In this document: positions 5,001 to 59,756 of the stretch, one piece after another | Layout: each line of letters starts with the position of its first letter | Numbering within the stretch: the first letter of the stretch is position 1 | DNA from: Streptomyces physcomitrii | GTDB taxonomy: Bacteria > Actinomycetota > Actinomycetes > Streptomycetales > Streptomycetaceae | Direction: 5' to 3' | NCBI RefSeq assembly: GCF_012273655.1 | Contig: NZ_JAAWWP010000013.1 | Location: 1-64,000, forward strand | Length of the DNA: 64,000 nucleotides | Notes under the pieces: generated by a model | The model's database searches: none | What the model saw: the letters and a program-made list of their open reading frames with translations, nothing else | What the model was told of the DNA's origin: nothing | Translations under genes and position numbers: made by a program

Positions 5001-7332
5001 CGCCGAGCACGGCCGTGCGGATGGACTCGACCTGGGGCCCGTGGGAGGCGTAGTCCACGTTGACCAGGCGGGCGCGGACGCCGTCCGCCTCGCAGGCGGC
5101 GCGGAGTTCGGCCAGGGCCTCGGGCTCGCCGGAGACCACGGTGGAGGAGGGGCCGTTGACCGCGGCCAGCGAGATGCGCGCGCCGAAGGCGGTGAGCCGG
5201 GCGCGTACCGCCTCGGCCGGTTCGGCGACGGACATCATGCCGCCCTTGCCCGCGAGCGCGAGCAGGGCCTTGGCGCGCAGCGCGGAGACCTTGGCGCCGT
5301 CCTCCAGGGAGAGGGCGCCGGCGACCACGGCCGCGGCGATCTCGCCCTGGGAGTGGCCGACGACCGCGTCGGGCTCGACCCCGCAGGCGCGCCACAGGGC
5401 GGCGAGGGAGACCATCACGGCCCACAGCACGGGCTGGACGACGTCGACCCGGTCGAAGCCGGGCGCGCCCTCGGCACCGCGCAGCACCTCGAGCAGGCGC
5501 CAGTCGGCGTAGGGGGCGAGCGCCTTGTCGCACTCGGCCATCCGGGCGGCGAACGCCGGTGAGCTGTCGAGGAGTTCGACGGCCATGCCCGGCCACTGGG
5601 AGCCCTGGCCGGGGAAGACGAAGGTGGTCTTGCCCTCGATGTCGGCGAGGCCCTCGACGAGGTGGGCGGCGCTCTGCCCGTCGGCGAGGCGCCGCAGGGT
5701 GTCGAGGTGCTCGCCGCTGGCCGCGCCGAGCGAGACCGCGCGGTACGGGAGCGGGGAGCGGGTGGTGGCGAGGCCGAGCCCGAGGGCGGCCGCCGTGGTC
5801 TCGGGGTGGGCGGTGCCATGGGCGTGGACGCGGGCGGCCTGGCCGCGGACGGCCTCGGTGCTGTGCCCGGCGAGCGGCCAGGCCACCGCGGTGTCCGCGG
5901 CGAAGGGCGGCAGCGCGGGCGCCTCGGGCGCGGGCCGCCGCTCGTCGGCCTCGGCGGCCTGTTCGAGGATGAGGTGGGCATTGGTGCCGCTGATGCCGAA
6001 GGCGGAGACGGCGGCGCGCCGGGGCCGGTCGAGGGCGGGCCAGTCCTGGTTGTCGGTGAGGAGTTCCACCGCGCCCGCGGACCAGTCGACGTGCGGGGTG
6101 GGCGCGTCGATGTGCAGGGTCTTGGGCAGCACGCCCTTGCGCAGGGCCATGGTCATCTTGATGACGCCCGCGATACCGGCCGCCGCCGCGGTGTGCCCGA
6201 TGTTGGTCTTCAGGGAGCCGAGCCACAGCGGCTGCTCCGCCGGGCGCTCCTTGCCGTAGGTGGCGAGGACGGCCTGCGCCTCGATGGGGTCGCCGAGGGT
6301 GGTGCCGGTGCCGTGCGCCTCGACCACGTCGACGTCGCGGGGCCGCAGCCGCGCGTGCGCGAGGGCCTGGCGGATGACGCGCTGCTGGGAGGGGCCGTTG
6401 GGGGCGGCGAGGCCGTTGGAGGCGCCGTCCTGGTTGGTGGCCGAGCCGCGGACCACCGCGAGCACCCGGTGGCCGTTGCGGCGGGCGTCGGAGAGGCGTT
6501 CCAGGACGAGGACGCCGACGCCCTCGCCCCAGCCGGTGCCGTCCGCGCACTGGGCGAAGGCCTTGCAGCGGCCGTCCTCGGAGAGCCCGCGCTGGCGGCT
6601 GAACTCGACGAACAGTCCGGGGACGGACATCACGCTGACGCCGCCCGCGAGCGCCATCGAGCACTCGCCCGCGCGCAGCGCCTGGCAGGCCCAGTGCAGG
6701 GCGACCAGGGAGGAGGAGCAGGCCGTGTCGACGGTGACCGCCGGGCCCTCGAATCCGTAGTGGTAGGACAGCCGCCCGGAGACCACGCTGCCGGAGGTGC
6801 CGGTCAGGGAGTAGCCCTCGGCGCCCTGCTGGGTGTGGCCGCCGACGATGTAGGCCGGGGTCGCGGCGCCCACGTAGACGCCGGTCTGGCTGCCCTTGAG
6901 GGAGAGCGGGTCCAGGCCCGCGCGCTCCAGGGCCTCCCAGGAGGTCTCCATCAGGATCCGCTGCTGCGGGTCCATGGCGAGGGCCTCGCGCGGGGAGATC
7001 CCGAAGAGGCCGGGGTCGAAGTCGGTGGCGTCGTGGAGGAAGCCGCCGGAGCGGGTGTAGGCGGTGCCCGGGTTGTCCGGGTCCGGGTGGTAGAGCCGCT
7101 CCAGGTCCCAGCCGCGGTCGTCGGGGAAGCCGGAGATGGCGTCCCGGCCCTCGGAGACCAGCTCCCACAGGTCCTCGGGCGAGCGCACCCCGCCGGGGTA
7201 GCGGCAGGCCATGCCGACCAGGGCGATGGGCTCGCCGGTGCGGTTCTCGGCCTCGGTGAGGCGCTGCCGGGTGTCGTGCAGTTCGGCGGCAACCCGCTTG
7301 AGGGACTCGACAAGCTTGTCCTCGTTCGCCAT
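1..7332 (-). CDS. Modular type I polyketide synthase, modules 3 and 4 (3' end outside window)
   Basis: Second PKS of the assembly line; 2,444 codons lie in the window and the gene continues past the left edge. The ATG at 7332 follows an AAGGA ribosome site 9 bases upstream. The N-terminus (about residues 1-33) is a charged coiled coil typical of actinomycete PKS docking domains, which fits the tail of the PKS encoded 32 bp upstream. Module 3 is KS (Cys205), AT (Ser661, YASH at 761-764, methylmalonyl type), DH (His969), KR (Tyr1546) and ACP (Ser1716). Module 4 begins with KS (Cys1948) and an AT with GHSIGE (Ser2392), a malonyl-type motif, and is cut there. No thioesterase is visible, so chain release is encoded further left. 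The last ~420 bases have different codon usage from the rest. Confidence 0.96.
2016..7332 (-). other. PKS module 3: KS-AT(methylmalonyl)-DH-KR-ACP
   Basis: AT has GHSQGE (Ser661) and YASH (761-764), the methylmalonyl signature. DH has His969 in HxxxGxxxxP. No ER lies between DH and KR. KR has LDD and Tyr1546; ACP Ser1716 is in LGFDSL. Expected product: a 2-methyl-2-enoyl intermediate. Confidence 0.93.
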
Positions 7333-7364: not shown

Positions 7365-10300
7365 TCAGGAGAGCCCGAGTTCGTTCTGGATGAAGTCGAG
7401 TACCTCGTCCGCGGAGGCGGATTCGAGCCGCTCGGCGGCGCCTGCCTCGCTCCCCGGTACGGGCTCCTCGGCGGGTGCGGCGGCCTTCCACCGCTGGAGC
7501 AGCTCCTCCAGGCGGGCGGTGACCTCCTGGTGCTCCCCGTCGGCGGGGTCGGCGCCGAGGACGGCGTTCTCGAACCGCTGGAGTTCGCCGAGGAGGTCGG
7601 CCGGGGTGTCCGGGGCGGCCGCCGGCACCAGTTCGCCGAGCAGATGACCGGCGAGGGTGACGGTGGTCGGATAGTCGAAGATGAGCGTCGGAGGCAGCCG
7701 CAGGCCGGTGGCCGCGCCGAGCCGGTTGCGGAACTCGACGGCGGTCAGCGAGTCGAAGCCCAGCTCCTTGAAGGTGCGGTCGGCGCCGATCGCGGCGGGC
7801 GCGCCGTGCCCGAGGACAGCGGCGACATCGGCGCGCACCAACTCCAGGAGCAGGTGCTCGCGTTCGCCCTCCGGCAGCGCCGCGAGCCGCTCGGCGAGCG
7901 GGATCTCGGTCGCGCCCGCGGCGGCGGCCGAGACCGTCCGCCGTACCGTCGTACGCACCAACCCCCGGAAGACACCGGGGAGTTCGCCGGTACGTCCGCG
8001 GGCCCTGAGGGCGGCGAGGTCGAGCGGTACGGGCGCGAGCAGCGCCTCGTCCCCGGCCACCGCGGCGTCGAAGAGCCGCAGGCCCTCCGCGTCGGACATC
8101 GGCAGGAAGCCGGAGCGGCCGAGCCGAGCGAGGTCGGCGGAGCCGAGCCCCGCGGTCATCTCGCTGGACTGGGCCCAGTGGCCCCAGGCGAGCGAGACGC
8201 CCGGCAGCCCCTGGGCGCGGCGGTGCGCGGCGAGGGCGTCCAGGAAGGTGTTGCCCGCCGCGTAGTTGGACTGCCCGGCGTTGCCGAGGACTCCGGCGGC
8301 CGAGGAGTAGAGGACGAAGGCGGTCAGGTCCAGGTCGCGGGTCAGCTCGTGCAGATGCCAGGCGGCGTCGGCCTTCGGGCGCAGGACGCGGGAGAGGCGT
8401 TCGGGGCTCTGGGCGGCGAGGATTCCGTCGTCGAGGACTCCTGCGGTGTGGACGACCGCACGCAGCGGGCGCGCCGCGTCGATCCCGTCGAGCAGCTTCG
8501 CCAACTGCCCGCGGTCGCCCGCGTCGCAGGCCACCACTTCGGCCTGCGCACCCAACTCGCACAGTTCCGCCACGAGTTCGGCCGCACCCGGCGCCTCAGG
8601 ACCACGACGCGCCGCCAGCACCAGATGCCGCACACCGTGCTCGGCCACCAGGTGCCGGGCCACCAGCGCACCCAACGTGCCCGTACCACCGGTCACAAGC
8701 ACCGTCCCCGACGGATCCCAGACCTGCGGAACCGTCAGCACGATCTTGCCCACATGCCGCGCCTGCGACATGAACCGGAACGCCTCACCCGCACGACGGA
8801 TGTCCCACGACCGCACCGGCAGCGGCTTCAGCACCCCCGCCTCGAACAACCGCGCAAGCTCCGCCAGCATCTCCCCGATACGGTCCGGACCGGCCTCCAT
8901 CAAATCGAAGGCCTGGTAGCGGACGCCCGGGTAGTCGCGGGCGACCTGCTCGGGCTCGCGGATGTCGGTCTTGCCCATCTCGACGAAGCGTCCGCCGCGC
9001 GGCAGCAACCGCATGGAGGCGTCCACCAGTTCACCGGCCAGGCAGTCCAGGACCACGTCCATGCCCGCGCCGCCGGTGGCGGTGCGGAAGCGCTCCTCGA
9101 AGGTGCTGGAGCGGGAGGATCCGTAGTGCGCGCCGCCGAAGCCCATCAGGTCGCGCAGGGTGTCCCACTTGCCCTCGCTGGCGGTGCCGAAGACCTCTGC
9201 GCCCAGGTGGCGGGCCAGCTGTACCGCGGCCATGCCGACGCCGCCCGCCGCCGCGTGGATCAACACGCGTTCCTCCGCGCCGAGTTCGGCGAGGTCGACC
9301 AGTGCGTAGTAGGCGGTGAGGAAGACCGCGGGTACCGAGGCGGCCTGCTCGAAGGACCAGCCGCCCGGCATCGGGGCGAGCATCCGGGCGTCGGCGACGG
9401 CGAGTTGGCCGAAGGAGTGCGGGATCATGCCCATCACCCGGTCGCCCACGGCGAGTCGGCTCACCCCGGGGCCGGTCTCGGTGACCACACCGGCGGCCTC
9501 GCTGCCGAGCACGATCTTGTCCGGGTACATGCCGAGCGCCATCAGGACATCGCGGAAGTTGAGTCCGGTGGCCCGTACCGAGACGCGGACCTCGCCCGCG
9601 GCGAGCGGCCGCAGGGCCTCCTCGTGCGGCACCAGGGACAGGCTCTCCAGGGTGCCGCCGCCGGTGGTGTCCAGGCGCCAACTCGGGGCGTCCGCGGGCG
9701 GGGTGAGGAGTTCGCCGCTGCCGCCGCGGGCCAGCCTCGGGGTGAGGAAGCGGCCCTCGCGGACCGCGATCTGGTCCTCCCCGGTGGCGACCGCCGCGAG
9801 CACGGACAGGTCCTCGGCGGTGTTCTCGGTGCTTTCGGCGGCGCCCGCCACGCTCAGGTCGGTGTCGACCAGGACGAAGCGGCCCGGGTTCTCGGTCTGC
9901 GCGCTGCGCACCAGACCCCAGAGCGCGGCGTGCGTCAAGTCGCCGACGTCCTCGCCGTGTCGGGCGGCGACGGCACCGTGGGTCAGGACGACGAGCTTGG
10001 TGCCTTCGAGGAGTTCCTCGGCGAGCCAGGCCTGGAGGACGGCGAGCAGGCGCGCGCTCTCGGAGTGGACCGCCTCGGCGGTGACGCCGTTCTGCGCGCG
10101 GGGCACCGGCAGCAGTACGGCCGCGGGGGCGCCGGCCTCGCCGCGGGCCGCCGCGAGGAGTTCCGCCACATCGGCGTAGACGGGCGAGCCGTCGGTGCGG
10201 TGCGCGGCGGGCAGCCGCTCGCCGAGTACCGCCCAGTCGCGCTCGGGCTCGTGGTCGGCCGTGACCTGCGTCCAGTCGAGGCGGAAGAGGCCCTCCTGCG

Positions 10301-13300
10301 CGGGAGCGGCCCCCAACTGCCCGGCGGGCACCGGCAGCAGGGTCAGCGAGTCGATCTCGGCGACCGGCAGTCCGGCGGTGTCGGTGAGCGTGACCGAGAC
10401 ACTGCCCTCGGCGGCGCCGCTCATCCGCACCCGCAGGGCGCTCGCGCCCTCGGCGTACAGGCTGACCCCGCTCCAGGCGAAGGGCAGCTTCACCTCCCCC
10501 GCGCCGGACTCGGCGAGGCCGAGCAGCACGGGGTGCAGGGCGGCGTCGAGCAGCGCGGGGTGCAGCCCGAACTCGGCCGCCTCCTCCTGCTGTTCGGGGG
10601 CGAGGGCCACCTCCGCGCAGAGCTCTTCGCCGTCCCGCCAGGCCGCCTTCAGGCCCTGGAAGGCGGGGCCGTAGCCGTAGCCGGAGTCGGCGAGCCGCTC
10701 GTAGAAGCCGTCCAGCGGGACCGCCTCGGCGCCCGCGGGCGGCCAGGCGGCGGGCTCGGCGGCCGGGGCCGGGGCCGGGGCCTGCGGGGCGAGGGTGCCG
10801 CTGGCGTGCCGGGTCCAGGTGCCCTGCCCGTTCTCGGGGCGGGCGTGGATCTCGACACTGCGGGTGTCGGCCTCCTCCCCCTCGGGCCCTGTGCCGACCA
10901 CGACCTGGAGCTGTACGGCGCCCTGCGCGGGCAGCACCAGCGGTGCCTCCAGGGTGAGTTCGGCCAGGCGGCCGAGGCCGGCCTCCTCCCCCGCGCGCAG
11001 CGCGAGGCCGACGAAGGCGGTGCCCGGCAGGAGCACGCTGCCGCCGACCGCGTGGTCGACGAGCCAGGGCCGGGTCCCCGCCGAGACGCGGCCGGTGAGC
11101 ACCAGGCCCTGGCCGTCCGCGAGGTGCACGGCGGCGCCGAGCAGCGGGTGCCCGGCGGCGGCCAGCCCCAGTCCGGCGGCGTCCGAGGCCCCGGCGACCG
11201 GCGCCAGCCAGTACCGCTCGTGCTGGAAGGCGTACGTCGGCAGGCTGACCCCGATGCTCTGCTCCGGCCCGTAGCGGGCGGACCAGTCGATGTCCACGCC
11301 GCGGGTCCAGGCCTGGGCGAGGGCGTCGAGGAAGGCCTCCGGCTCCGGGCGGTCCTTGCGCAGGACGGGCAGCAGCAGGGTCTCGGGGTCCGTCAGGGTC
11401 TCCTGCGCCATCGCGGTGAGCACACCGTCGGGGCCCAGCTCGACGAAGCGGGTCACGCCGCGGGAGGCGAGGAAGCCGATGCCATCGGCGAAGCGGACCG
11501 CGCGGCGCACATGCTCCACCCAGTACGCCGCGTCGAAGGCGGTGACCTGTTCACCCGTCAGATTCGAGACCACGGGCACCGAGGGCTCCTGGTACGTCAA
11601 CTCCTCGGCCACCCGCCGGAACGCGTCCAGCATGGGTTCCATCAGCGGGGAGTGGAAGGCGTGCGAGACGCGCAGCCGCCGGGTCTTGCGGCCCGCCTCG
11701 GCGAGGCGTCCGGCGATCTCCTCGACCGCCGCCTCCTCACCGGAGAGGACCACGGACTCGGGGCCGTTGACCGCGGCCACGTCCACCCGGCCGGTGAACT
11801 CCGCGAGATGCACGCGTACTTCGTCCTCGGTGGCGCGCACCGAGACCATCGCGCCGCCCTCGGGCAGCGCCTCCATCAGCTGCCCGCGCGCGGCGACCAG
11901 ACGGCAGGCGTCCGGCAGCGGGAGCACGCCCGCGACATGGGCGGCGGCCAGCTCACCGATGGAGTGCCCGGCCACGAAGTCGGGCCGTACGCCCAGGGAT
12001 TCGACCAGGCGGAAGAGCGCGACCTCGATGGCGAAGAGGGCGGGCTGGGTGGTGCCGGTGCGGTCGAGTTCCTCCTGCCGGGCGGTGAAGATCCGCTCCC
12101 GCAGGTCCTCGCCGAAGGCGGCGCAGACCTCGTCGAAGGCGGCGGCGAACACCGGCTCGGCGGCGTACAGTTCGCGGCCCATCCCGGCACGCTGGGCGCC
12201 CTGGCCGGAGAAGAGGAAGGCCAGCCGCCCCTGGGTCGCGGGGAGTTGGCCCTGCCGCAGGCCCGGCGCCTCCTCACCGGCGGCGAGCGCGCGCAGCGCG
12301 GCGAGCTGGCCCGCCGGCGAGTCGGCGGTGACCACGGCGCGGTGCTCCAGGGCGGAGCGCCGGTGCACCAGCGCCGAGGCGGTGGCGGACAGACCGGGGC
12401 CCGTGTCCGCCCAGTCGGCGAGCCGCCCGGCCTGGCCGCGCAGGGCGCGCTCGCCGCGGGCGGAGAGCGGCCAGGCGACGAGCCCGGCCTCGGTTCCGGA
12501 CCCGGTTCCGGCGGCGGGGGTCTCGGCGGCGGGGGCCGCCGGGGCCTCTTCGAGGACCACATGGGCGTTGGTGCCGCTGATGCCGAAGGAGGAGACGGCG
12601 GAGCGGCGCGGGCGGCCGGTCTCGGGCCAGTCGACGCCCTCGTCCAGGAGCCGCACGGCGCCGGACTCCCAGTCGACCTCGGGGGTGGGCACCTCGGCGT
12701 GCAGGGTGCGCGGGAGCTTCCCGTGCCGCATGGCCTGCACCATCTTGATGACCCCGGCGACACCGGCGGCGGCCTGGGCGTGGCCGATGTTCGACTTCAG
12801 CGAGCCGAGCCACAGCGGGGACTTCCCCGCGCGCTCCTTGCCGTAGGTGGCGAGCAGGGCCCCCGCCTCGATGGGGTCGCCGAGGGTGGTGCCGGTGCCG
12901 TGCGCCTCCACCGCGTCGACCTCGTCCGCGCCGAGGCGGGCGTTGGCGAGGGCCTGCCGGATGACGCGCTGCTGGGCCGGGCCGTTGGGCGCGGTGAGGC
13001 CGTTGGAGGCGCCGTCCTGGTTGGTGGCCGAGCCGCGCAGCACGGCGAGGACCTGGTGGCCGTTGCGGCGGGCGTCGGAGAGGCGTTCGAGCAGGACCAG
13101 GCCGACGCCCTCCGCCCAGCCGGTGCCGTCCGCGTCGGCGGCGAAGGACTTGCAGCGCCCGTCGGCGGCCATGCCCCGCTGGCGGCTGAACTCGACGAAC
13201 ACCCCGGGGGTCGCCATCACGGCGACGCCCCCGGCGAGCGCCATCTGGCACTCGCCCTGCCGCAGCGACTGCGCGGCCAGGTGCATGGCGACCAGCGAGG

Positions 13301-16300
13301 AGGAGCAGGCGGTGTCCACGGTGACCGCGGGGCCCTGGAGTCCGAAGGCGTAGGAGACGCGGCCGGAGACCACGCTGCCCTGGGTGCCGGTGAGGCCGTA
13401 GCCCTCCACCCGCTGGGCGTTCTCCTCCACCCGGAAGGCGTAGTCGTGGTGCATGGCGCCCGCGAAGACACCGGTGCGGCTGCCGCGTACGGCGTCCAGA
13501 CCGAGCCCGGCGCGCTCGAAGAGCTCCCAGGAGGTCTCCAGGAGGAGCCGCTGCTGCGGGTCCATCGCCAGCGCCTCGCGCGGGGAGATCCCGAACAGCT
13601 CGGGGTCGAAGTCCCCGGCTTGGTACAGGAATCCGCCCTCGCGGGCATAGCTGGTGCCGAGCTTCTCGGGGTCCTGGTCGAAGAGGGTGTCCAGGTCCCA
13701 GCCGCGGTCGGTGGGGAAGCCGGAGACGGCGTCCCGGCCCTCGGCGACCAGCTCCCACAGGTCCTCGGGCGAGGCGACGCCGCCCGGGTAGCGGCAGGCC
13801 ATGGCGACGATCGCGATCGGCTCGCCGGTGCCGCCCTGCACCGGGGTGTCCGGCAGCTCGGCGGGCGCCGCGGCCTCGGCGCCGAGGAGTTCGCCGCGCA
13901 GGAAGCGGGCGGCCGCGGTCAGCGTGGGGTGGTCGAAGATCAGGGTGGCGGGCAGCCGGATGCCGGTGGCGGCGCCGAGCTGGTTGCGCAGCTCGACCGC
14001 GGTGAGCGAGTCGAAGCCGAGCGCCTTGAAGGCCCGGTCCGCGCTGATCGCCGCGGGGTCGCCGTGGCCGAGCACGGCGGCCACCGACTCCCGTACCAGA
14101 TCGGTGAGTTCGCGCTCCTGCTCGGCCTCGCCGAGGGCGGCGAGGCGCCGGACCAGGGCGGAGGACCCGTCCTCGGCGGCGCCCGTCTCGACGGTGCGCC
14201 GGGCCGGAACCCGCACCAGCCGGCGGAAGAGTCCGGGCAGCAGTCCGGAGGCGGCGCGCCCGCGCAGGGTCGCCATGTTCAGGCTGACCGGTACGAGGAG
14301 GGCCTCGCCGGGGGTGCGCAGGGCGGCGTCGAGGAGGGCGAGCCCGTGGTCGGAGGCGAGCGGCTGGATGCCGGCCCGGCTCATCCAGCCGAGGTCGCCG
14401 TCCTCCAGGTGGGCGAGGAGACCGCTGGCCTCCTGCCACAGGCCCCAGGCCAGCGAGGAGGCGGGCAGCCCCTCGGCGTGGCGGCGGTGGGCGAGCGCGT
14501 CCATGAAGGCGTTGGCGGCGGCGTAGTTGGACTGGCCGGGGTTGCCGAAGACGCCCGCGATGGAGGAGAAGAGCACGAAGGCGGTCAGGTCGAGGTCGCG
14601 GGTCAGCTCGTGCAGATGCCAGGCGGCGTCGGTCTTGGGCCGCAGCACCGCGTCGAGGCGCTGCGCGCTCAGCGCGCCGACCATGCCGTCGTCGAGCACG
14701 CCGGCCGCGTGGAAGACACCGGTGAGCGGGTGGGCCTCGGGGATCCGGTCGAGCAGCGCGGCCAGTTCCGCGCGGTCAGCGGCGTCGCAGGCGACCACCT
14801 CGGCCTCGGCGCCCAGGGCGGCGAGCGAGTCGGCCAGGGCGGCGGCGCCGGGCGCCCCGGGTCCGCGGCGGCCCGTCAACAGGAGCCTGCGGACGCCGTG
14901 TTCGGTGACCAGGTGGTGGGCGAGGAGGGCGCCGAGGGTGCCGGTGCCGCCGGTGATCAGGACGGTGCCCTCGGGGTTCCAGCGCGGGCGGGCGGCGGGC
15001 TGCCCGGCGCTGCGGGACAGCCGCGGCACCAGCAGCGCCTTGTCGCGCACCGCGAGCTGGGACTCGCCGGTGGCCAGCGCGGCGGGCAGATCGCCGCCGC
15101 TGCTGTCCCAGGGGTCGCGGTCGAGGAGGAGGAAGCGGTCCGGGTTCTCGGACTGGGCGGAGCGCAGCAGTCCCCACAGCGGCGCGTGCACCAGGTCGGT
15201 GACGTCCTCCCCGGCGCGTACGGCCATGGCCCCGCGGGTGACGACCGCCAGCCGGGACCCGGCGAACCGGTCCTCGGCCAGCCACTCCTGTACGAGGGCC
15301 AGCATCCCGGCGGTGGCCGCGCGGGCGCGCTCGGCGAGCAGGCCCGGGTCCGCGACCTCCTCGGGCTCGCGGGCGACCACCACGACGGGCGGCACGGCCA
15401 TGCCCTCGTCCAGGGCGGCGGTGAGCGCGGCCAGGTCGGGGAAGGCGCTGCCGCCGATCTCGGCCCAGTCGGCGGGCGCGGTACCGCCCGCGGGCACCGG
15501 CGACCACTCGACGCGGTACAGGCCCTCGCGGGCGGCCCCGCCGGTGAACTGCTCGGCGGCGACCGGCCGCAGCACGAGCGAGTCGGCGGAGGCCACCGGG
15601 CGGCCCTCGGTGTCGGTCACCAGGAGGGAGACCGTGTCGGTGCCGAGCGAGGTCATCCGCAGCCGCAGCGCGGCGGCCCCGACGGCGTGCAGGGTCAGCC
15701 CGCTCCATACGAAGGGCAGCCGGACCCCGGCGTCCTCACCGCGTGCGGCGCGCAGCAGCTGCTCGGCGTGCAGCGCGGCGTCCAGAAGCGCGGGGTGCAG
15801 CCCGAACTCCCCTGCCTGCTCCCGCTGTTCGGGGGCGAGCGCCACCTCGGCGAAGATCTCCTCGCCGCTCCCCCAGGCCTTGTGCAGGCCCTGGAAGGCG
15901 GGCCCGTAGCCGTAACCGGCCTCGGCGGTACGGGCGTAGAAGTCGCCGAGGTCCAAGGCCTCGGCCCCGGCGGGCGGCCAGGCCTCCAGTGTCCGGGGAC
16001 CGCTGGTACCGGCGGGCGCGAGGAAGCCCAGGGCGTGTCGCACCCAGCTCTCCTGCGCCTCCTCGTCCTCGGCCCGGGAGTGCACCGAGACCTGGCGGCG
16101 ACCGGAGGCGTCGGCGGGACCGACACCGACCTGGAGCTGCACCCCGGAGTGCTCCGGCAGCAACAGCGGTGCCTCCAGGGTGAGTTCCTCCAGGTGCTCG
16201 CAGCCCGCCTCGTCCCCGGCGCGGACCACCAGCTCCACGAAGGCGGTGCCCGGCAGCAGCACGCTCCCCATGGCGCCGTGGTCGGCGAGCCAGGGGTGCG

Positions 16301-19300
16301 TCTTCAGGGAGACCCGGCCGGTCAGCAGGTACTGGTCGCCCTCGGCGAGGCGTACGGCGGCGCCGAGCAGCGGGTGCCCCGGCGCGCGGAGACCGGCGGA
16401 TCCGACATCGGCCGCGGAGGTCTCGGCCATGTCCAGCCAGTAGCGCTCGCGCTGGAAGGGGTAGGTGGGCAGCACGGGCCCCAGATCACGCACCGGCTCC
16501 GGCAGCACCGCGGTCCAGTCGAGGGCCACACCACGGGTCCAGGCCTCCGCGAAGGAGGTCAACACCCGCCGCAGACCGCCCTCTTGACGCCGCAATGTCC
16601 CCTGCGCGAGCACCTCCACACCCACATCGTCAGAGGTCTCACTGATGCCGTACGTCAGCACCGGATGCGCACTCGACTCCACGAACACATCGAAACCGTC
16701 GGCGATCAGGGCACGTACGACCGGCTCGAAGCTCACCGGGCGACGGCAGTTCTCGAACCAGTACGAAGCATCCAACTCGGCACCCGACAGCACCTCGCCG
16801 TTGACCGTCGAGTAGAGCGGGACGGAGCCCTCGCGCGGCTGCACGAACGACAGCAGGTCCAGGATCCGCTCGCGCAGCGGGTCCACCTGGGCGCAGTGCG
16901 AGGCGACCGTCGAACCGATCACCTTCGCCCGGACACCCTCCGCCTCCAACTCCGCCACCAGCTCCTCCAGAGCGGCGACTTGACCCGCGACCGTCACCGA
17001 ACGCGGACCATTGTTCCCCGCGATCGACAGCAACTCAGCCTCACCGTTGAAGCGAGCGATACGAGCCTCGACCTCAGCGGCAGGCAAGGAAACCGACGCC
17101 ACCGCACCCTTGCCCACCAGCTCATCGGCGAACAACTGCGAACGCAGCACGACCACTTGAGCCGCATCCTCAAGGGACAGAGCACCGGAGACGGCAGCAG
17201 CGGCGATCTCACCCTGGGAGTGGCCGACAACGGCATCCGGGACGACCCCGACCGACTGCCACAGCGCGGCCAGCGACACCATCACCGTGAACAGCACCGG
17301 CTGAAGGATCTCGATGCGGTCGAGCGACGGGGCCTCGTCCGCACCCCGGACGACCGACTCCACCGACCAGTCCACGTACTCCTCGACAGCGCCCGCCACT
17401 TCGGCGAACCGGGCCGCGAACACCGGCGAGGAGTCCAGGAGTTCGACCGCCATCCCCGCCCACTGCGAACCCTGACCCGGGAAGACGAACACCGTCTTGT
17501 TGCGGGGGGCGGCGAGTCCGCGTACCGCCGGGCGGTCCAGGGCGGTGAGGAGTTCGGCGTGGGAGTCGCCGATCGCGGCGGCGCGGTACTCGAAGGCGGT
17601 GCGGGAGGTGGCGAGGGCGGAGGCCAGGGCGAGGGTGTCGGGCTGATCGGCGGCGAAGGCGGCGAGGCGGGCGGACTGCACGCGCAGGCCCTCCTCGCTG
17701 CGGGCGGAGAGCAGCCAGGCCAGCGGCCGGTCCTGCTCCGGAGCCGGGGCGGGGGCCGACTCGGCCTCCGCCGGGGCCTCTTCGAGGATCAGGTGGGCGT
17801 TGGTGCCGCTGATGCCGAAGGAGGAGACACCGGCCCGGCGGGGGCGCTCGCCGCGCGGCCAGGGCGCGGGCGCGTTCAGGAGCTCCACGGCGCCCGCGGA
17901 CCAGTCGATGTGCGGGGAGGGTTCGGCGGCGTGCAGGGTCTGGGGCAGGGTCTCGTTCTGGAGGGCGAGGACCATCTTGATGACGCCGGCGACCCCGGCG
18001 GCCTGCTGGGTGTGGCCGATGTTCGACTTCAGCGAGCCGAGGCGCAGCGGAAGGCTCTCGCCGCGCAGGGTGCCGTAGGTGGCGAGCAGGGCGTGCGCCT
18101 CGATGGGGTCGCCCAGCTTCGTACCGGTGCCGTGCGCCTCGACCGCGTCGACGGAGTCGGCGGTGACGCCCGCGTTGGCCAGGGCCTGGCGGATGACGCG
18201 CTGCTGGGAGGGGCCGTTGGGGGCGGTGAGGCCGTTGGAGGCGCCGTCCTGGTTGGTGGCCGAGCCGCGGATCACGGCGAGGACCTGGTGGCCGTGGCGG
18301 CGGGCGTCGGAGAGCTTCTCCAGGAGCAGGACGCCCGCGCCCTCGGACCAGCCGGTGCCGTCGGCGGAGGCGGCGAAGGACTTGCAGCGGCCGTCGGCGG
18401 ACAGGGCGCGCTGGCGGGTGAGTTCGACGAAGATGCCGGGGGTGGGCATGACGGTGACGCCGCCCGCGAGGGCGAGGGAGCACTCGCCCTGCCGCAGGGA
18501 CTGGGCGGCCAGGTGCAGGGCCACCAGGGAGGCCGAGCAGGCGGTGTCGACGGTGACGGCGGGCCCGGTCAGGCCGAGGGTGTAGGCGATGCGGCCGGAG
18601 GCGACGCTCGGCGTGCTGCCGGTCATCAGATAGCCCTCGGTGGTCTCCGTGCCCTCGTGCAGGCGGGGCCCGTAGTCCTGGAAGGTGGCGCCGACGAAGA
18701 CGCCGGTCTGGGTGCCGCGCAGGGCGGCCGGGTCGATCCCGGCGCGTTCGACGGCCTCCCAGGAGGTCTCCAGGAGGAGCCGCTGCTGCGGGTCCATGGA
18801 GGTGGCCTCGCGCGGGGAGATGCCGAAGAAGGCGGGGTCGAAGCGGGTGGCGCCGCCGAGGAAGCCGCCCTCGCGGACGTAGTGCTTGCCGGGCTGGGTG
18901 CCCTCGGGGTCGTAGAGGCCCTCCAGGTCCCAGCCGCGGTCGGTGGGGAAGGCGCCGATGACGTCGCGGCCCTCGGCGAGCACGCTCCACAGCTGCTCGG
19001 GAGTGTCCACGTCGCCGGGGAAGCGGCAGCTCATGGCGACGATGGCGATGGGCTCGTCGCCGGCCGACACGGTGGGCGCGAGGGCGGTCTCCTCGCCGCC
19101 GCCGAGGGCGAGTTCGCGCAGATACCCGGCGAGCGCCAGCGGGGTCGGGTAGTCGAAGAGCAGGCTGCTCGGCAGGGCGAGGCCGGTGGCGGCGGAGAGC
19201 CCGTCGCGCAGTTCGACGGCGGTCCAGGAGTCGAAGCTCAGCTCGTGGAAGGTGCTGCGCAGGTCGATCTCGTCGGTGGGGTCGAGCCGCAGCACGGTGG

Positions 19301-22148
19301 CGATGTGCTCGCGCAGCAGGCGGTGCAGGCTGCGGTCCTGCTCGGCGGCGGAGAGGGCCCCGAGCCGCTCGCGCAGGGCGGAGCCGGGCCGGTCCTCCTC
19401 GCTCGCCTCCGGGGCGGGGGCGGCGGCCCGGGGCGCGGCCGGGGCGGGACGGGCCGTGCCGGTGGTGTCGATCCAGTGGCCGCGGCGCTGGAAGGCGTAG
19501 GTGGGCAGGGCGATGTGGCCCGGCTCGGCGGGACCGTAGAGCGCGTCCGGGTCCAGGTCGACGCCGACGGTGTGCAGCCGGGCGAGCGCGGTGGTCAGGG
19601 CCTCGGTCTCGGGGGTGCGGGTGCCGCGCTGCACGGGAACGAAGGCCGATTCGGGGTCGGCGCACTCGCGGCCCATCGAGGACAGGGCGCCGTCGGGGCC
19701 GATCTCGACGTAGCGGGTGACCCCGGCGGCCTCCAGGGCGGCGATGCCCTCGGCGAAGCGGACGGCGCCCCTGACGTGGCGCACCCAGTAGTCGGCGGTG
19801 CCGATCTCCTCGTCCGCGACGGGCCGTCCCGTGAGGTTGGAGACGACCGGGAGGGTGGCGGGCCGGTAGGTCAGCTCCTCGGCGACGCTGCGGAACGCGT
19901 CGAGCATTCCGTCCATGTGCGCGGAGTGGAAGGCGTGGCTGACGCGCAGCCGCTTGGTCTTGCGGCCCTGGGCCGCGAAGTGGGCGGCGGCCTCGTCCAC
20001 CGCGGCGGCGTCGCCGGAGACGACGACCGCGCGCGGCCCGTTGACCGCGGCGAGGTCCAGGCGTCCGCCGTGCTGGTCGAGGAGCGGGGCGAGTTCCTCC
20101 TCGGTGGCCTCCAGGGCGGCCATGGCGCCGCCCTCGGGGAGCGCGTCCATGAGCCTGCCGCGGGCCGCGACCAGGCGGGCGGCGTCGGCGAGGCTCAGCA
20201 CCCCGGCGACATGGGCGGCGGCGAGTTCGCCGATGGAGTGCCCGACGAGGAAGTCGGGGCGGGCGCCGAGGTGTTCGAGGAGCCGGTACAGGGCGACCTC
20301 GAAGGCGAACAGGGCGGGCTGGGTGTACGCGGTGCGGTCGAGCAGCGCGGCCTCGGGGCTGTCCGCCGCGGCGAAGGCGATCTCGCGCAGCGGGCGGTCG
20401 AGCAGCGGGTCGAGTGCGGCGCAGACCTCGTCGAAGGCGCGGGCGAACTCCGGTTCCGCGGCGTGCAGTTCGCGGCCCATGCCGGGGCGCTGGCTGCCCT
20501 GGCCGGTGAAGAGGAAGGCGGTGGCCCCGGGCAGGGCGCGGCCCTGGACGAGCTGGGCGCTGCTGTTGCCGTCCGCGAGGGAGCCGAGCCCGGCGAGCAG
20601 CTCGGGCAGCTGGTGGCCGAGGACGACGGCGCGGTCCTTGTGCGCGGTACGGGTGGTGGCGAGCGCGCGGGCGAGGGCGGCCGGCGGGTGGCCGGGCTCG
20701 GCGGCGAGGTGCGCGGCGAGCCGGGCGGCCTGGGCGCGCAGGGCCTTGTCGCCGCGGCCGGAGACGGGGAAGAGGAGGGGGCGGGCCGGGACGGTGGCGG
20801 CCTTCGGCTCGGGGGCGGCGGCCGGGGCGGGGGCCTCGCCGAGGACGACATGGGCGTTGGCGCCGCCGAGGCCGAAGGAGCTGACCCCGGCGATCAGCGG
20901 CTGCTCGGGGGCGGGCCAGGGGCTCCTGCGGTCCTGGACGCGCAGGCCGAGGGCGGGCAGGTCGATGGCCGGGTTGGCGGCGCGGAAGTGCAGGCTCGGG
21001 GGCAGTTCGCGGTGGCGGATCGCGAGGGCGGCCTTGACCAGCCCGGCGATCCCGGCCGCGGCCTCCAGATGGCCGATATTGGTCTTCGCGGAGCCCACGG
21101 CGACCGGGGCCGGCGCGTCGCGTCCCTCGAAGGCGGCGCCGAGGGCGGCGGCCTCGACGGGGTCGCCGACCGGGGTGCCGGTGCCGTGCAGTTCGACGTA
21201 CTGCACCTGGTCGGGGCTCTGGCCCGCGGCGGCCAGGGCGTGCCGTACGACCTCGGTCTGGGCCTCGGCGCTGGGGACGGTCAGTCCGTCGGTGGCGCCG
21301 TCGTGGTTGACGGCGCTGCCGAGGATCACGCAGTGCACGCGGTCGCCGTCGGCGAGGGCGGCGTCCAGCGGCTTGAGGACGACGACGCCGCCGCCCTCGC
21401 CGCGCACGAAGCCGTCGGCCCGCTCGTCGAAGGTGTGGCAGCGGCCGCTCGGGGAGAGCCCGCCGAAGCGGGCGGTGATCTCCGAACTCGCCGGGTCGAT
21501 ACGGAGGTTGACGCCTCCGGCGAGGGCGAGGTCGGCCTCGCCGGAGAGCAGGGCCTGGCAGGCGAGGTGGACGGCGACCAGGGAGGAGGACTGCGCGGTG
21601 TCCACGGTGAGGCTGGGGCCGCGCAGGCCGAGGGTGTAGGAAACGCGGTTGGCGATGACGCCGCGGTTGAGGCCGGTGAAGGTGTGCTGGGTGACGGCGG
21701 GGTCGCCGTGGCGCTTGACGAGGGCCGCGTAGTCGTCCCAGATGGCGCCGACGTAGACGCCGGTGGCGGAGTTCTTCAGGGCGCCGGGGAGGGTGCCCGC
21801 GTCCTCCAGGGCCTCCCAGACGAGTTCGAGGACGAGCCGCTGCTGGGGGTCCATGGCGGCGGCCTCGCGCGGGGAGATCCCGAAGAAGGCGGCGTCGAAG
21901 GCGTCGACGCGGTCCAGGAAGCCGCCGCGCGCGCCCGCGCCTCCGGCGCCCTCGGGCAGGGCCGCGCGGCGCGCCTCGGGCACCTCGGTGACGGCGTCGG
22001 TGCCCTCGCTGAGCAGCCGCCAGTAGGCGCCGGGGCCGTCCGCCTGGGGGAAGCGGCAGGCCATGCCGACGACGGCGACCGGTCCGGTGCTCCGGTCAGG
22101 TGTCCGCGCAGCCCGAGGCGCCTGCCGTGAATTCACCGGGTCAGCCAC
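7365..22148 (-). CDS. Modular type I polyketide synthase: loading module plus modules 1 and 2
   Basis: First PKS of the assembly line, 4,927 residues. The GTG at 22148 has a GAAGGGG ribosome site close upstream. Order: KSQ (Gln186)-AT (Ser638, HAFH at 738)-ACP (Ser974); then KS (Cys1204)-AT (Ser1644, VASH at 1748-1751)-DH (His1957)-KR (Tyr2542)-ACP (Ser2714); then KS (Cys2948)-AT (Ser3396, HAFH at 3496)-DH (His3699)-ER (about 4130-4445)-KR (Tyr4629)-ACP (Ser4800). The Gln in place of the KS cysteine is the hallmark of decarboxylating loading modules, so the expected starter is acetyl from malonyl. The C-terminus ends in a short acidic docking-type helix ([13 protein letters not shown]). All KRs carry the LDD motif (B type). 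Three stretches of distinct codon usage occur across the two PKS genes, two of them in this gene. Confidence 0.97.
7368..13829 (-). other. PKS module 2: KS-AT(malonyl)-DH-ER-KR-ACP
   Basis: Fully reducing module. AT has GHSIGE and HAFH (malonyl). DH has an intact His3699 motif. ER shows [14 protein letters not shown] and the nucleotide-binding [14 protein letters not shown] has Tyr4629 and LDD. ACP Ser4800 sits in LGFDSL. It should add a saturated CH2-CH2 unit. Confidence 0.93.
8525..8905 (-). other. Codon-usage island at the ER-KR junction of module 2
   Basis: From the end of ER into the first third of KR the coding strand turns to GGT, CGT, CTT, TTG and GTG-rich usage, unlike both flanks. 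The nucleotide-binding start of KR lies inside it. This looks like a short gene-conversion tract. Confidence 0.5.
13830..19061 (-). other. PKS module 1: KS-AT(VASH)-DH-KR-ACP
   Basis: KS has DTACSAS. The AT has GHSQGE, as in branched-extender ATs, but VASH where methylmalonyl ATs have YASH and malonyl ATs HAFH. The substrate loop reads [18 protein letters not shown] keeps HxxxGxxxxP (His1957) and [12 protein letters not shown] keeps Ser, Tyr2542 and Asn and has LDD. The product should be a 2-substituted 2-enoyl thioester. The branch could be methyl, ethyl or a larger alkyl group. Confidence 0.9.
16470..17500 (-). other. Codon-usage island covering the AT of module 1
   Basis: On the coding strand this stretch uses many T-ending codons (GCT, GGT, CGT, GTT, CTT, GAT) and TTG, which are nearly absent on either side where GCC, GCG and GGC dominate. 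The island matches the AT catalytic domain from just before its first conserved motif to its C-terminal end. I infer a recombination-borne AT domain. The limits are by eye, good to a few tens of bases. Confidence 0.65.
19062..22148 (-). other. PKS loading module KSQ-AT-ACP
   Basis: The KS active-site motif reads DTAQSSS, with Gln186 where elongating KSs have Cys; the HGTGT and GH motifs are kept. The AT has GHSIGE and HAFH, the malonyl signature. Established for KSQ modules: malonyl-ACP is decarboxylated to acetyl-ACP. The ACP reads LSFDSW around Ser974 rather than the LGFDSL of the other ACPs, a deviation at both flanks of the phosphopantetheine site. Confidence 0.93.
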
Positions 22149-22450: not shown

Positions 22451-23479
22451 ATGACAGGAATAGGAATACTGGGCACCGGGTCGTATCTTCCTGCTGACAG
22501 AGTTTCCAATGCCGTCGTCGCCGAACGGGCCGGGGTCACCGAGGAGTGGATCGCGCGCAAGACCGGTATCCGGGAACGCCGTTACGCCGCCGATTCGGAG
22601 GCGACATCCGACCTCGCGGTGGAGGCGGCCCGGGCCGCGCTCGACTCGGCGGGACTGGACGCCGCCCAGCTGTCCTGGATCCTCCTGGCGACCTCCACCC
22701 CGGACAGCCCGCAGCCGGCCACCGCCTGCCTCGTACAGGACCGCATCGGCGCGGTGAACGCGGCGGCCTTCGACCTCAACTCGGTGTGCAGCGGCTTCGT
22801 CTTCGGCCTCGTCACCGCCGCCCGGCTGCTCGCCGCGCCGGGACCGGACGGCCCGGGATACGGACTGGTCATCGGCGCCGACACCTACTCCCGGATCATC
22901 GACCGCGAGGACCGGCGCACCGCGATCCTCTTCGGCGACGGGGCGGGCGCCGCGGTCCTCGGACCGGTCAGATCCGGCCACGGCCTGATCGGCTCGCAGC
23001 TCTCCACGGTGGGCGGCACCGAGGACCTCATCCGGGTCGAGGCGGGCGGCAGCCGGCTGCCCGCCTCCGAGAAGACCGTCGCCGAGGGCCTGCACCACTT
23101 CCGTATGAACGGCCGCGGGGTGAGCGAATTCGTCGCCGCCGAACTGCCGCCCGCCGTACGGGAGGTCATCGCCTCCGGCGGTCTGCGGAACTCCGACATC
23201 GACCACTTCATTCCGCATCAGGCCAACGGCGTGATGCTCGCGAAGCTCCTGCCCGAACTCGGTCTCGACCGGGCGCGCACCCATCTGACCGTGGAGCGGC
23301 ACGGCAACACCAGCGCCGCTTCCATCGCGATCACCCTCGACGAGGCGCACCGCTCGGGCGCCTTCGGCGACGGGGACGTGCTGCTGCTCACCGGGTTCGG
23401 CGGCGGTATGTCGCTCGGCTCGGCGCTCGTGCGCTGGGACGGTCCGGCCGCCCGCGCCCATCGAAAGGAAACCGTATGA
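22451..23479 (+). CDS. KAS III (FabH-like) ketosynthase, candidate extender-unit enzyme
   Basis: 342 residues, the usual length for 3-oxoacyl-ACP synthase III. The catalytic triad is present: Cys113 in NSVCSGF, His256 in IPHQAN and Asn286 in HGNTSAA. The GFGGG loop near the C-terminus is intact. It should condense an acyl-CoA with malonyl-ACP or malonyl-CoA to a 3-ketoacyl product. Its stop overlaps the next ATG (ATGA at 23476-23479), so the two are translationally coupled, and it faces away from the loading PKS. In known clusters such a KAS III with a 3-hydroxyacyl-CoA dehydrogenase and a carboxylase/reductase makes alkylmalonyl-CoA; that role here is inference. Alternative: an unrelated fatty acid or starter function. 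Confidence 0.9.
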   Translation: MTGIGILGTGSYLPADRVSNAVVAERAGVTEEWIARKTGIRERRYAADSEATSDLAVEAARAALDSAGLDAAQLSWILLATSTPDSPQPATACLVQDRIGAVNAAAFDLNSVCSGFVFGLVTAARLLAAPGPDGPGYGLVIGADTYSRIIDREDRRTAILFGDGAGAAVLGPVRSGHGLIGSQLSTVGGTEDLIRVEAGGSRLPASEKTVAEGLHHFRMNGRGVSEFVAAELPPAVREVIASGGLRNSDIDHFIPHQANGVMLAKLLPELGLDRARTHLTVERHGNTSAASIAITLDEAHRSGAFGDGDVLLLTGFGGGMSLGSALVRWDGPAARAHRKETV

Positions 23480-25194
23480 CGTCCGCACCGCCCGCCTTCG
23501 ACTCCGTCGCGGTCTTCGGACTCGGCACCATCGGCTCCGCCCTGACCGCCTCCCTGCTGCGCACCGGCGCGCGGGTGACCGCCGTGGAGGCCGACGAGGC
23601 CTCGCTCGCCCGGGGCCGGGAGGCGGTGCGGCAGGCCGCCGGTGAGGCGGCGGAGCAGGTCACGTACACCCTGGACCCGGACGCCGTCGCGGGCAGCGGG
23701 CTGGTCATCGAGGCGGTGACCGAGGACCTCGCCCTGAAGGCCGCGGTGCTGCGCCGGGCGGGCGAGGTCTGCGGGCCCGCGACGATCCTCGCGACCACCA
23801 CCGCGCTCTCCGTCACCCAGGTCGCCGCCGAGACCGGGCGCCTGCCGCGGACCATCGGCCTGCACCCGGTGGGGCACGCCCCGGACGGCGGCGTGGTCGA
23901 GGTGGTCGCCACCCCGGTCACCGACCCGGAGGTGCGGGAGCGGACCACGGAGCTGGTCGCCCAACTCGGCCGTACCGCCGTGGACTCCACCGACCTGCCG
24001 GGCTTCACCGGCGGCGGGCTGCTCATGGCCTACCTCGCGGGCGCCGTCGCGATGCTGGAGCGGCGCTACGCCTCCCGCGACGACATCGACGCGGCGATGA
24101 CGCTGGGCTGCGGACTGCCCCTCGGGCCGCTCGCCCACCTCGACCTGATAGGCCTGGACACAGCGCTCGACACCCTGCGCGGGCTGCACCGCCTCACCGG
24201 CGAGCGGCGCTTCCTGCCGCCGCCGCTGCTCACCCACATGGTCACCGCGGGCCTGCTCGGCGTGAAGTCCGGCCGCGGCTTCTACAGTTACCCCGCCGAC
24301 GCGCCTGGCCGGCCGGTGGCCGCGAGCCCCGGGCTCGGCGAACCGCGTCCGGTGCGGCAGGTCGGCATCGTCGGCTCCGGCACCATGGCGCGCGGCATCG
24401 CGGAGGTCTTCGCCCGCAGCGGCTACGCGACGGTGCTCACCGCCCGCTCCGAGGTCAAGGCGAAGGAGGCGGTCGCCGGGGTCGGCCGCTCCCTGGACCG
24501 CGGGGTGAGCCGCGGCAAGCTCTCGGCGGAGGTCGCCGCGACGGCCCTGGACCGGCTGCTGCCCGCCGACGACTTCGGCGCGCTCGGCGACTGCGATCTG
24601 CTGATCGAGGCGGTCGCCGAGGAACTCCCGGTCAAGCGGCAGATCTTCGGCGCCCTGGACAGGGCCAGCCGCCCGGACGCGGTGCTCTCCACCACCACCT
24701 CCAGCCTGCCGGTGGTCGAGTGCGCGATGGCCACCCGGCGGCCCGGCTCGGTGGTCGGCATGCACTTCTTCAACCCGGCGCCGGTGATGAAGCTGGTCGA
24801 GGTGGTCGGCACCGTGCTGACCGCGCCGGACGCGCTGGCCACCGCGCACCGGGTCTGCGCGGACCTCGGCAAGCACCCGGTGGCCTGCGCGGACCGCGCC
24901 GGGTTCATCGTCAACGCCCTCCTCTTCCCGTACCTCAACGACGCGGTGCGGCTCCTGGAGGAGCACCGGGCACCGGCCGAGGACATCGACACGGTGATGG
25001 CGCAGGGCTGCGGCTATCCGCTCGGCCCGCTGGCCCTGCACGACGTCATCGGGCTCGATGTCTCGCTGCAGATCCAGCGCAGCCTGCACGCGGCCTTCCA
25101 CGAGGAGTCGCTCGCCCCGGCGGCGCATCTGGAGCACCTGGTCGGCGCGGGCTACCTGGGCCGCAAGACGGGCCGCGGCTTCCGCAGCCACTGA
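23476..25194 (+). CDS. Tandem 3-hydroxyacyl-CoA dehydrogenase (two fused units)
   Basis: 572 residues made of two copies of the NAD-binding plus C-terminal dehydrogenase unit (about 8-282 and 291-572). A single-unit 3-hydroxybutyryl-CoA dehydrogenase is about 285 residues. The second unit is canonical: GSGTMARG, the catalytic His in GMHFFNPAPVMKLVEVVG, Glu in IEAVAEE and Asn in FIVNALL. The first keeps GLGTIGS, IEAVTED and the His in GLHPVGH, but the FFNP block and the Asn (FTGGGLL) are lost, so it is probably impaired or has a different substrate. It should reduce the 3-ketoacyl product of the coupled KAS III. Dehydratase and carboxylase steps would have to come from elsewhere. Confidence 0.9.
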   Translation: MTSAPPAFDSVAVFGLGTIGSALTASLLRTGARVTAVEADEASLARGREAVRQAAGEAAEQVTYTLDPDAVAGSGLVIEAVTEDLALKAAVLRRAGEVCGPATILATTTALSVTQVAAETGRLPRTIGLHPVGHAPDGGVVEVVATPVTDPEVRERTTELVAQLGRTAVDSTDLPGFTGGGLLMAYLAGAVAMLERRYASRDDIDAAMTLGCGLPLGPLAHLDLIGLDTALDTLRGLHRLTGERRFLPPPLLTHMVTAGLLGVKSGRGFYSYPADAPGRPVAASPGLGEPRPVRQVGIVGSGTMARGIAEVFARSGYATVLTARSEVKAKEAVAGVGRSLDRGVSRGKLSAEVAATALDRLLPADDFGALGDCDLLIEAVAEELPVKRQIFGALDRASRPDAVLSTTTSSLPVVECAMATRRPGSVVGMHFFNPAPVMKLVEVVGTVLTAPDALATAHRVCADLGKHPVACADRAGFIVNALLFPYLNDAVRLLEEHRAPAEDIDTVMAQGCGYPLGPLALHDVIGLDVSLQIQRSLHAAFHEESLAPAAHLEHLVGAGYLGRKTGRGFRSH

Positions 25195-59654: not shown

Positions 59655-59756
59655 ATGCGAGGACTGTCCGTGTCCATCCAGACGGAAGCCACTGTCTACA
59701 CCGAGGACATGACACCCCTTGCACACCCTGAACCTGGGCATCCTGGCGCATGTTGA
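59655..59756 (+). CDS. Candidate leader peptide overlapping the ribosomal protection gene
   Basis: A 33-residue ORF with a strong ribosome site (GAGGAG, 8 bases before the ATG). It ends 38 bases inside the downstream gene, in another frame. The protection gene itself has only a TTG start and a distant GAGGA. A stop codon in the protection-gene frame at 59710-59712 excludes any earlier start. This layout suggests that translation of the leader controls the main gene, as leader peptides do for other tetracycline and macrolide resistance genes. Expression and regulation are inference. Confidence 0.5.
   Translation: MRGLSVSIQTEATVYTEDMTPLAHPEPGHPGAC

Follow-up and report, generated by a model that had tools for sequence, protein, structure and literature searches.

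The locus and its polyketide synthase

The window, a stretch of 64,000 nucleotides from Streptomyces physcomitrii (contig NZ_JAAWWP010000013.1, positions 1 to 64,000), carries a large PKS gene on its minus strand (Table 1). The gene encodes a KSQ-AT-ACP loading module, followed by module 1 with the order KS-AT-DH-KR-ACP and module 2 with the order KS-AT-DH-ER-KR-ACP. A plus-strand open reading frame at 7530-22130 covers nearly the same DNA; since its translation matches no known protein and the minus frame opposite it is the PKS with a GC3 of 0.94, we reject it as a GC-rich antisense frame. Adjoining the PKS is a gene pair for a KASIII and a 3-hydroxybutyryl-CoA dehydrogenase. Elsewhere in the window, the start of an ORF at 59719-61773 resembles, by eye, an EF-G-like ribosome protection protein.

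Table 1. Features of the window (coordinates in the window; T3, share of T-ending codons)
Feature	Position	Strand	Basis or remark
PKS gene	7365..22148	-	Translation and Pfam
Module 3 AT, YASH, methylmalonyl type	4675..5625	-	T3 0.00
GRINS-type element, second, in the module 2 ER/KR region	8109..9098	-	Windowed identity 0.89, partner on own contig C36; contains the T3 island 8550-8906
Module 2 AT, GHSIGE, malonyl type	11292..12218	-	T3 0.04; in-gene control without island
GRINS-type element, repeat common to modules 1, 9 and 14 of the same PKS	16479..17558	-	1080 bp, windowed identity 0.95
Peak segment for T-ending codons	16485..17237	-	Maximal-scoring segment, T3 0.187
Module 1 AT, predicted ethylmalonyl-CoA	16527..17492	-	Pfam PF00698; GHSQGE/VASH motifs; PDB 6iyt, E 3e-193
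Loading AT, GHSIGE, malonyl type	19557..20516	-	T3 0.01; control from within the gene, no island
FabH-like beta-ketoacyl-ACP synthase III, likely supplying C4 precursors	22451..23479	+	NCBIfam TIGR00747 above cut-off
3-hydroxybutyryl-CoA dehydrogenase, two domains fused, likely supplying C4 precursors	23476..25194, start approximate	+	NCBIfam NF005875, two stretches, above cut-off

Orthologues were sought in 310 of 392 genomes of the genus and then in 80 of the remaining 82; among the genomes searched, a full-length 3.2 kb orthologue was found in only two, G043 and S. bambusae SK60 (G314). The orthologous cluster of G043, a member of the same genus, lies within one contig and aligns with three S. 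physcomitrii contigs: C5 (77.3% over 19837), C6 (79.1% over 32607) and C36 (77.7% over 9357). The KASIII/dehydrogenase pair is within the aligned stretch. This colinearity places C5, C6 and C36 in one cluster and orders modules 4 and 6, whose ATs are split at contig ends and whose positions were taken from G043. The ends of C36 (at 9303) and of C6 (at 212613) have the same first 60 bases in the coding direction. As these bases lie within malonyl ATs, the assembly was probably interrupted by near-identity between the malonyl ATs of modules 4 and 6. In SK60, contig L133 contains L032 at 100%, and the orthologues of modules 1, 9 and 14 are 77.0%, 78.7% and 74.8% identical over 4053, 10795 and 9484 bp, respectively.

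The resulting order of ATs is malonyl for loading; VASH in module 1; malonyl in 2; YASH in 3; malonyl in 4, 5 and 6; YASH in 7 and 8; VASH in 9; YASH in 10, 11 and 12; malonyl in 13; and VASH in 14. Besides one starter AT, the 14 extension modules on C5, C36 and C6 thus comprise five malonyl, six methylmalonyl and three VASH ATs. Salinomycin is built from five malonyl, six methylmalonyl and three ethylmalonyl extenders, according to the excerpted text of PMC9228677, and the extender tally over 14 modules is the same. The cluster also encodes a flavin epoxidase of the Lsd18/MonCI type (C6:156652-158106, E 4.8e-162 to LasC/Lsd18), as expected of a salinomycin-type PKS, together with an LCM-like methyltransferase, a P450 and thioesterases. 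A lasalocid-like product, suggested by the epoxidase and the starter end, was considered and rejected, as the AT tally fits salinomycin. We therefore describe the cluster as a 14-module salinomycin-type polyether PKS, its product being predicted from the genes.

Substrate of the module 1 AT

The initial annotation had reported GHSQGE together with VASH in the module 1 AT, and both motifs are present on the minus strand, the combination expected of an ethylmalonyl-specific AT. The domain differs from the protein of PDB 6iyt at about 12 of 322 residues (~96% identical, counted from the alignment), and the module 14 AT at about 13. The database lists 6iyt only as a type I modular polyketide synthase; we take it to be SalAT14, the AT14 of salinomycin biosynthesis. 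SalAT14 is named in the available portion of PMC12843615, which cites the paper on a salinomycin AT structure. Thus about 310 of 322 AT residues and, as far as the part of PMC9228677 on extenders goes, the AT tally are shared with the salinomycin PKS; in contrast to that structure, the AT in the window belongs to module 1.

When 131 AT proteins were placed in a tree, the 62 VASH domains all fell into one group together with nine that have VPTH, VPSH, VSTH or MASH, with a support of 99 and zero YASH domains, so the module 1 AT does not sit among ordinary methylmalonyl ATs. VASH is given as the ethylmalonyl motif in the passages at hand of PMC10646177 and PMC6090053, and an extract of PMC6490886 also reports it for the divergolide AT that takes isobutylmalonyl. 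Very probably, the module 1 AT loads ethylmalonyl-CoA, as judged from its motif and relatives. The initial suggestion of a larger or different extender accordingly survives in a modest form, that of a predicted ethylmalonyl unit, in line with the VASH motif, the likeness to 6iyt, the salinomycin tally and the KASIII/dehydrogenase pair. Two genes for crotonyl-CoA carboxylase/reductase were found (C5:226238-227131 and C22:2-892), each ending at a contig end, perhaps owing to their mutual similarity. For salinomycin, the relevant lines of PMC8601195 locate ccr outside the biosynthetic cluster.

A codon island and a repeat element at the module 1 AT

T-ending codons make up 50 of 322 codons in the module 1 AT and 107 of 4605 in the rest of the PKS gene (Fisher p 9.7e-23); for TTG the counts are 7 of 322 and 15 of 4605 (p 3e-4). 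The enrichment in both, as originally proposed, is therefore real, TTG being the weaker half of the codon claim, and a shift in codon usage is present at the AT borders. The best segment of T-ending codons scores 56.8, compared with a maximum of 14.5 in 1000 shuffles. T-richness thus starts within the domain, some 255 nt from its border, and the element defined by skew and identity comes close to the limits given in the initial annotation (16470-17500). Over the island, GC drops from ~0.75 to 0.66-0.68, and on the plus strand GC skew falls to about -0.2 while AT skew climbs to 0.3-0.4. T3 is raised, A3 is not, and G3 is still high. The same PKS gene has a second T3 island, in module 2 and outside any AT. 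This island, the strand skew and the near-identical AT copies within the PKS described below all go beyond what the initial annotation had observed.

At the DNA level, the module 1 AT is 92% and 94% identical to two further VASH ATs of the same PKS, with edges of similarity at the AT borders. A DNA search of the S. physcomitrii genome returned two close matches to the AT, both on C6 (89% and 90%); beyond these two copies, matches above 74% appeared only as short pieces. The copies are those of modules 9 and 14, as placed by the contiguous G043 cluster and by contig C36. Upon scanning along the module 1 AT, the best partner switches between them, with patches of 99-100% identity and a windowed identity of 0.95 to either copy (windows compared without gaps).

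These properties recall GRINS. The thresholds stated in the accessible part of PMC9899208 are a length of at least 500 bp, a mean identity above 80% in 150-nt windows within the same PKS, and mean absolute skews above 0.15. With mean absolute skews of 0.17 for GC and 0.30 for TA, the element at the module 1 AT passes all of them. A description in PMC10394414 asks for GC and TA skews >25%; over the whole element, the coding-strand TA skew of +0.30 (0.295) exceeds this value and the GC skew of +0.14 (0.144) does not. GC skew is above 0.25 in 6 of 32 windows, and both skews in 1 of 32. Since its GC skew is below 25%, we file the element as GRINS under the 0.15 definition only; under the 25% wording it is GRINS-like. 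A stretch of the module 1 KS (17949-18608) has the opposite skew (coding-strand GC -0.20) yet also passes the 0.15 thresholds.

As GRINS were introduced in a 2021 paper, relayed in portions of PMC10394414, PMC9899208 and PMC11907408, the features in common are a size of ~1 kb, a position at the AT of a cis-AT actinobacterial PKS, near-identity to other parts of that PKS, a coding strand with positive skew for both GC and TA, and mosaic conversion tracts. Unlike GRINS as so described, the element has a GC skew below the 25% of one description, and its orthologous repeats in SK60 are homogenized without skew.

Conversion among the ATs of modules 1, 9 and 14

In both G043 and SK60, modules 1, 9 and 14 also contain VASH ATs, which argues that VASH is resident in these three modules. 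The three ATs of each cluster resemble one another more than they resemble their orthologues: identity within a genome is 0.92 in S. physcomitrii, 0.86 in G043 and 0.91 in SK60, compared with 0.785 for the same module between genomes. The KS, the linker and the post-AT region show the opposite order, with a KS identity of 0.77-0.79 within a genome and 0.862 between genomes. Phylogenies follow the same pattern. The KS domains of modules 1, 9 and 14 each cluster across the three genomes (100/100), while the three VASH ATs of S. physcomitrii cluster with one another (100/100), and grouping the ATs by module is rejected (p-AU 8.5e-9, 2.2e-7 and 6.6e-23).

Within the module 1 AT, sites resembling module 9 and sites resembling module 14 are arranged in tracts, giving 31 runs where 64.1 are expected, a value as low as which occurred in 0 of 10000 permutations. 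Runs tests indicate mosaics in all three genomes, and in SK60 the ATs of modules 9 and 14 share an identical tract of 339 bp. This AT/KS incongruence and the mosaic runs test are what gene conversion between GRINS copies should leave. We conclude from these comparisons that the copies overwrite one another inside each cluster, and that the three S. physcomitrii ATs are mutual closest relatives through conversion.

ATs that group by cluster while KS domains group by module position are also found in the concerted evolution of PKS domains, to judge from the consulted part of Medema et al. 2014 (PMC4256081). Here, in contrast to that account, a single substrate class is followed in one orthologous polyether family across three genomes, in one of which a change in codon usage has joined in.

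Strand-biased gain of T

The VASH ATs of S. physcomitrii have a T3 of 0.12-0.16, whereas those of G043 and SK60 are at 0.02-0.05, with a weak island or none. Among the changes leading to this lineage, we counted 34 C>T and 12 G>T over the ATs of the three modules, and few to A; the corresponding KS domains had 6 C>T and no G>T. When third-position differences among copies were polarized, C>T accounted for 12 of 37 in S. physcomitrii and 2 of 49 in SK60. The gain of T is strong in one of three mutually converting lineages, mild in the second and nearly absent in the third.

The island extends beyond the ethylmalonyl type. Among 67 AT domains of the S. physcomitrii genome (10 fragments among 77 AT hits were excluded), 15 have a T3 of at least 0.10; only three of these are VASH, and YASH and malonyl ATs from other clusters are among the rest. 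T3-rich ATs number 13 of the 37 with a same-genome partner at 85% identity or more, and 2 of the 30 that have no such partner. A codon usage peculiar to the VASH class as a whole was considered and discarded, as the GC3 of 59 VASH and 56 YASH domains is alike (p 0.41). GC skew correlates with same-genome identity within the cluster in S. physcomitrii (rho 0.84, n=13) and in G043 (rho 0.58, n=15), but there is no correlation over the ATs genome-wide (rho 0.13, p 0.29); a rule that skew follows same-genome identity everywhere thus fails.

Skews stronger than those at module 1 occur in another cluster of S. physcomitrii on contig C31, where four YASH ATs (L184, L188, L197 and L198) have a mutual identity of 88-94%, GC skews of 0.19-0.30 and TA skews of 0.37-0.39. 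In S. milbemycinicus, L046 and L104 contain VASH and YASH ATs with strong islands in both substrate classes (GC3 0.68-0.78, GC skew 0.28-0.47).

The SK60 ATs are homogenized, yet they have hardly any GC skew and have gained hardly any T. Skew and conversion are therefore separable, and homogenization does not need skew. Tentatively, skew might follow homogenization instead of causing it, in which case the skew of GRINS could be a scar that mutation leaves, in some lineages, on cassettes prone to conversion; we hold this at somewhat below even odds.

A swapped AT in module 13

The AT of module 13 is of the malonyl type in S. physcomitrii and carries YASH in G043 and SK60. At this module, colinearity is broken only inside the AT (C6:177760-176942, L026, against G043:C3:153127-153942), and the S. 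physcomitrii domain, with a GC3 of 0.96, lacks an island. Judged by the alignments, module 13 is the only place where these clusters differ by a clean AT swap. The initial view of the AT as a discrete unit of exchange is upheld. Narasin is 4-methylsalinomycin; incorporation of methylmalonyl by module 13 of G043 and SK60 would fit a narasin-like (4-methyl) product, and a malonyl unit in S. physcomitrii would fit salinomycin.

Origin of the island

Our preferred reading, to which we assign a probability of roughly 0.87, is that the module 1 AT is an ethylmalonyl AT of a salinomycin-type PKS whose three copies, in modules 1, 9 and 14, convert one another and have gained T in this lineage, producing the GRINS pattern. 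By analogy with the family, ethylmalonyl-CoA would acylate the serine of GHSQGE and the unit would then pass to the ACP of module 1. The incongruent trees and mosaic tracts show that the three copies overwrite each other, with recombination confined to the AT cassette. In this lineage, third codon positions of the cassette have acquired T on the coding strand, in most cases in place of C, which accounts for both the codon island and the skews. One conceivable driver of the gain is deamination of coding-strand DNA that lies exposed while it is transcribed or repaired.

The initial annotation had instead seen in the island the trace of a foreign AT with other codon usage, swapped into module 1 so as to change its extender. 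The composition of the AT does depart from that of its flanks, the borders falling at the domain, and its lineage is sister (99/99) to an S. coffeae AT from a module that is not orthologous, and not to the G043 and SK60 orthologues. Against such an origin, VASH already occupies the same three modules of two orthologous clusters, so that the AT type of module 1 is unchanged there; the nearest AT relatives have a GC3 of 0.93-0.96 and a T3 of only 0.02-0.05; such an island is also present in methylmalonyl- and malonyl-type ATs of this genome, and the real swap at module 13 came without one; the three copies are closest to each other through conversion; and T gain is ongoing among them. We therefore regard a foreign, extender-changing swap as very unlikely. 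The sister relationship nevertheless means that conversion within the cluster is not the whole history, and an exchange is possible. In a two-step version, the cassette was exchanged with an S. coffeae-like polyether cluster, replaced the resident VASH ATs, spread over modules 1, 9 and 14 by conversion and only later became T-rich. A single clade of the three clusters' ATs is indeed rejected (p-AU 0.0065), and the KS of S. coffeae is not part of the module groups formed by the three genomes. However, the exchange could have run in either direction; the S. coffeae locus, with a single AT of this kind, starts at a contig end; and fast-evolving converted cassettes may mislead trees. The replacement would also have been ethylmalonyl for ethylmalonyl, with the substrate unchanged. 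We consider this earlier step a plausible but doubtful addition, with chances of about one in three. The S. coffeae AT has a T3 of 0.034, so the older exchange, if real, did not bring the island.

Two further explanations fare worse. The high mutual identity of the three ATs would, taken alone, fit a recent triplication of whole modules, but the KS, linker and post-AT regions are old and orthologous across genomes, and the best partner changes along the AT. Unless the KS tree and the AT tree are both artefactual, they refute triplication, and we give it next to no credence. If slower or regulated translation of the AT were selected for, rare T-ending codons could concentrate in one domain, as observed; yet the orthologous ATs of SK60 have no island, and a raised T without a raised A, with G3 still high, amounts to strand skew, not to a broad preference for rare codons. 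This too is highly improbable, if marginally less so than triplication.

Implications

A codon-usage island at an AT is, by itself, no sign that the AT was acquired horizontally. It is no proof of acquisition because the island here arose without a swap, while the real swap, in module 13, has no island. The phenomenon is already known as the published GRINS pattern, and the cluster trio is of use as a case in which conversion and skew come apart. With three orthologous clusters in which the same three ATs are homogenized and skew is unequal, it constitutes a small natural experiment on whether the skew of GRINS is a cause or a result of conversion. The difference at module 13, in turn, would predict which of these clusters makes salinomycin and which makes a 4-methyl relative.
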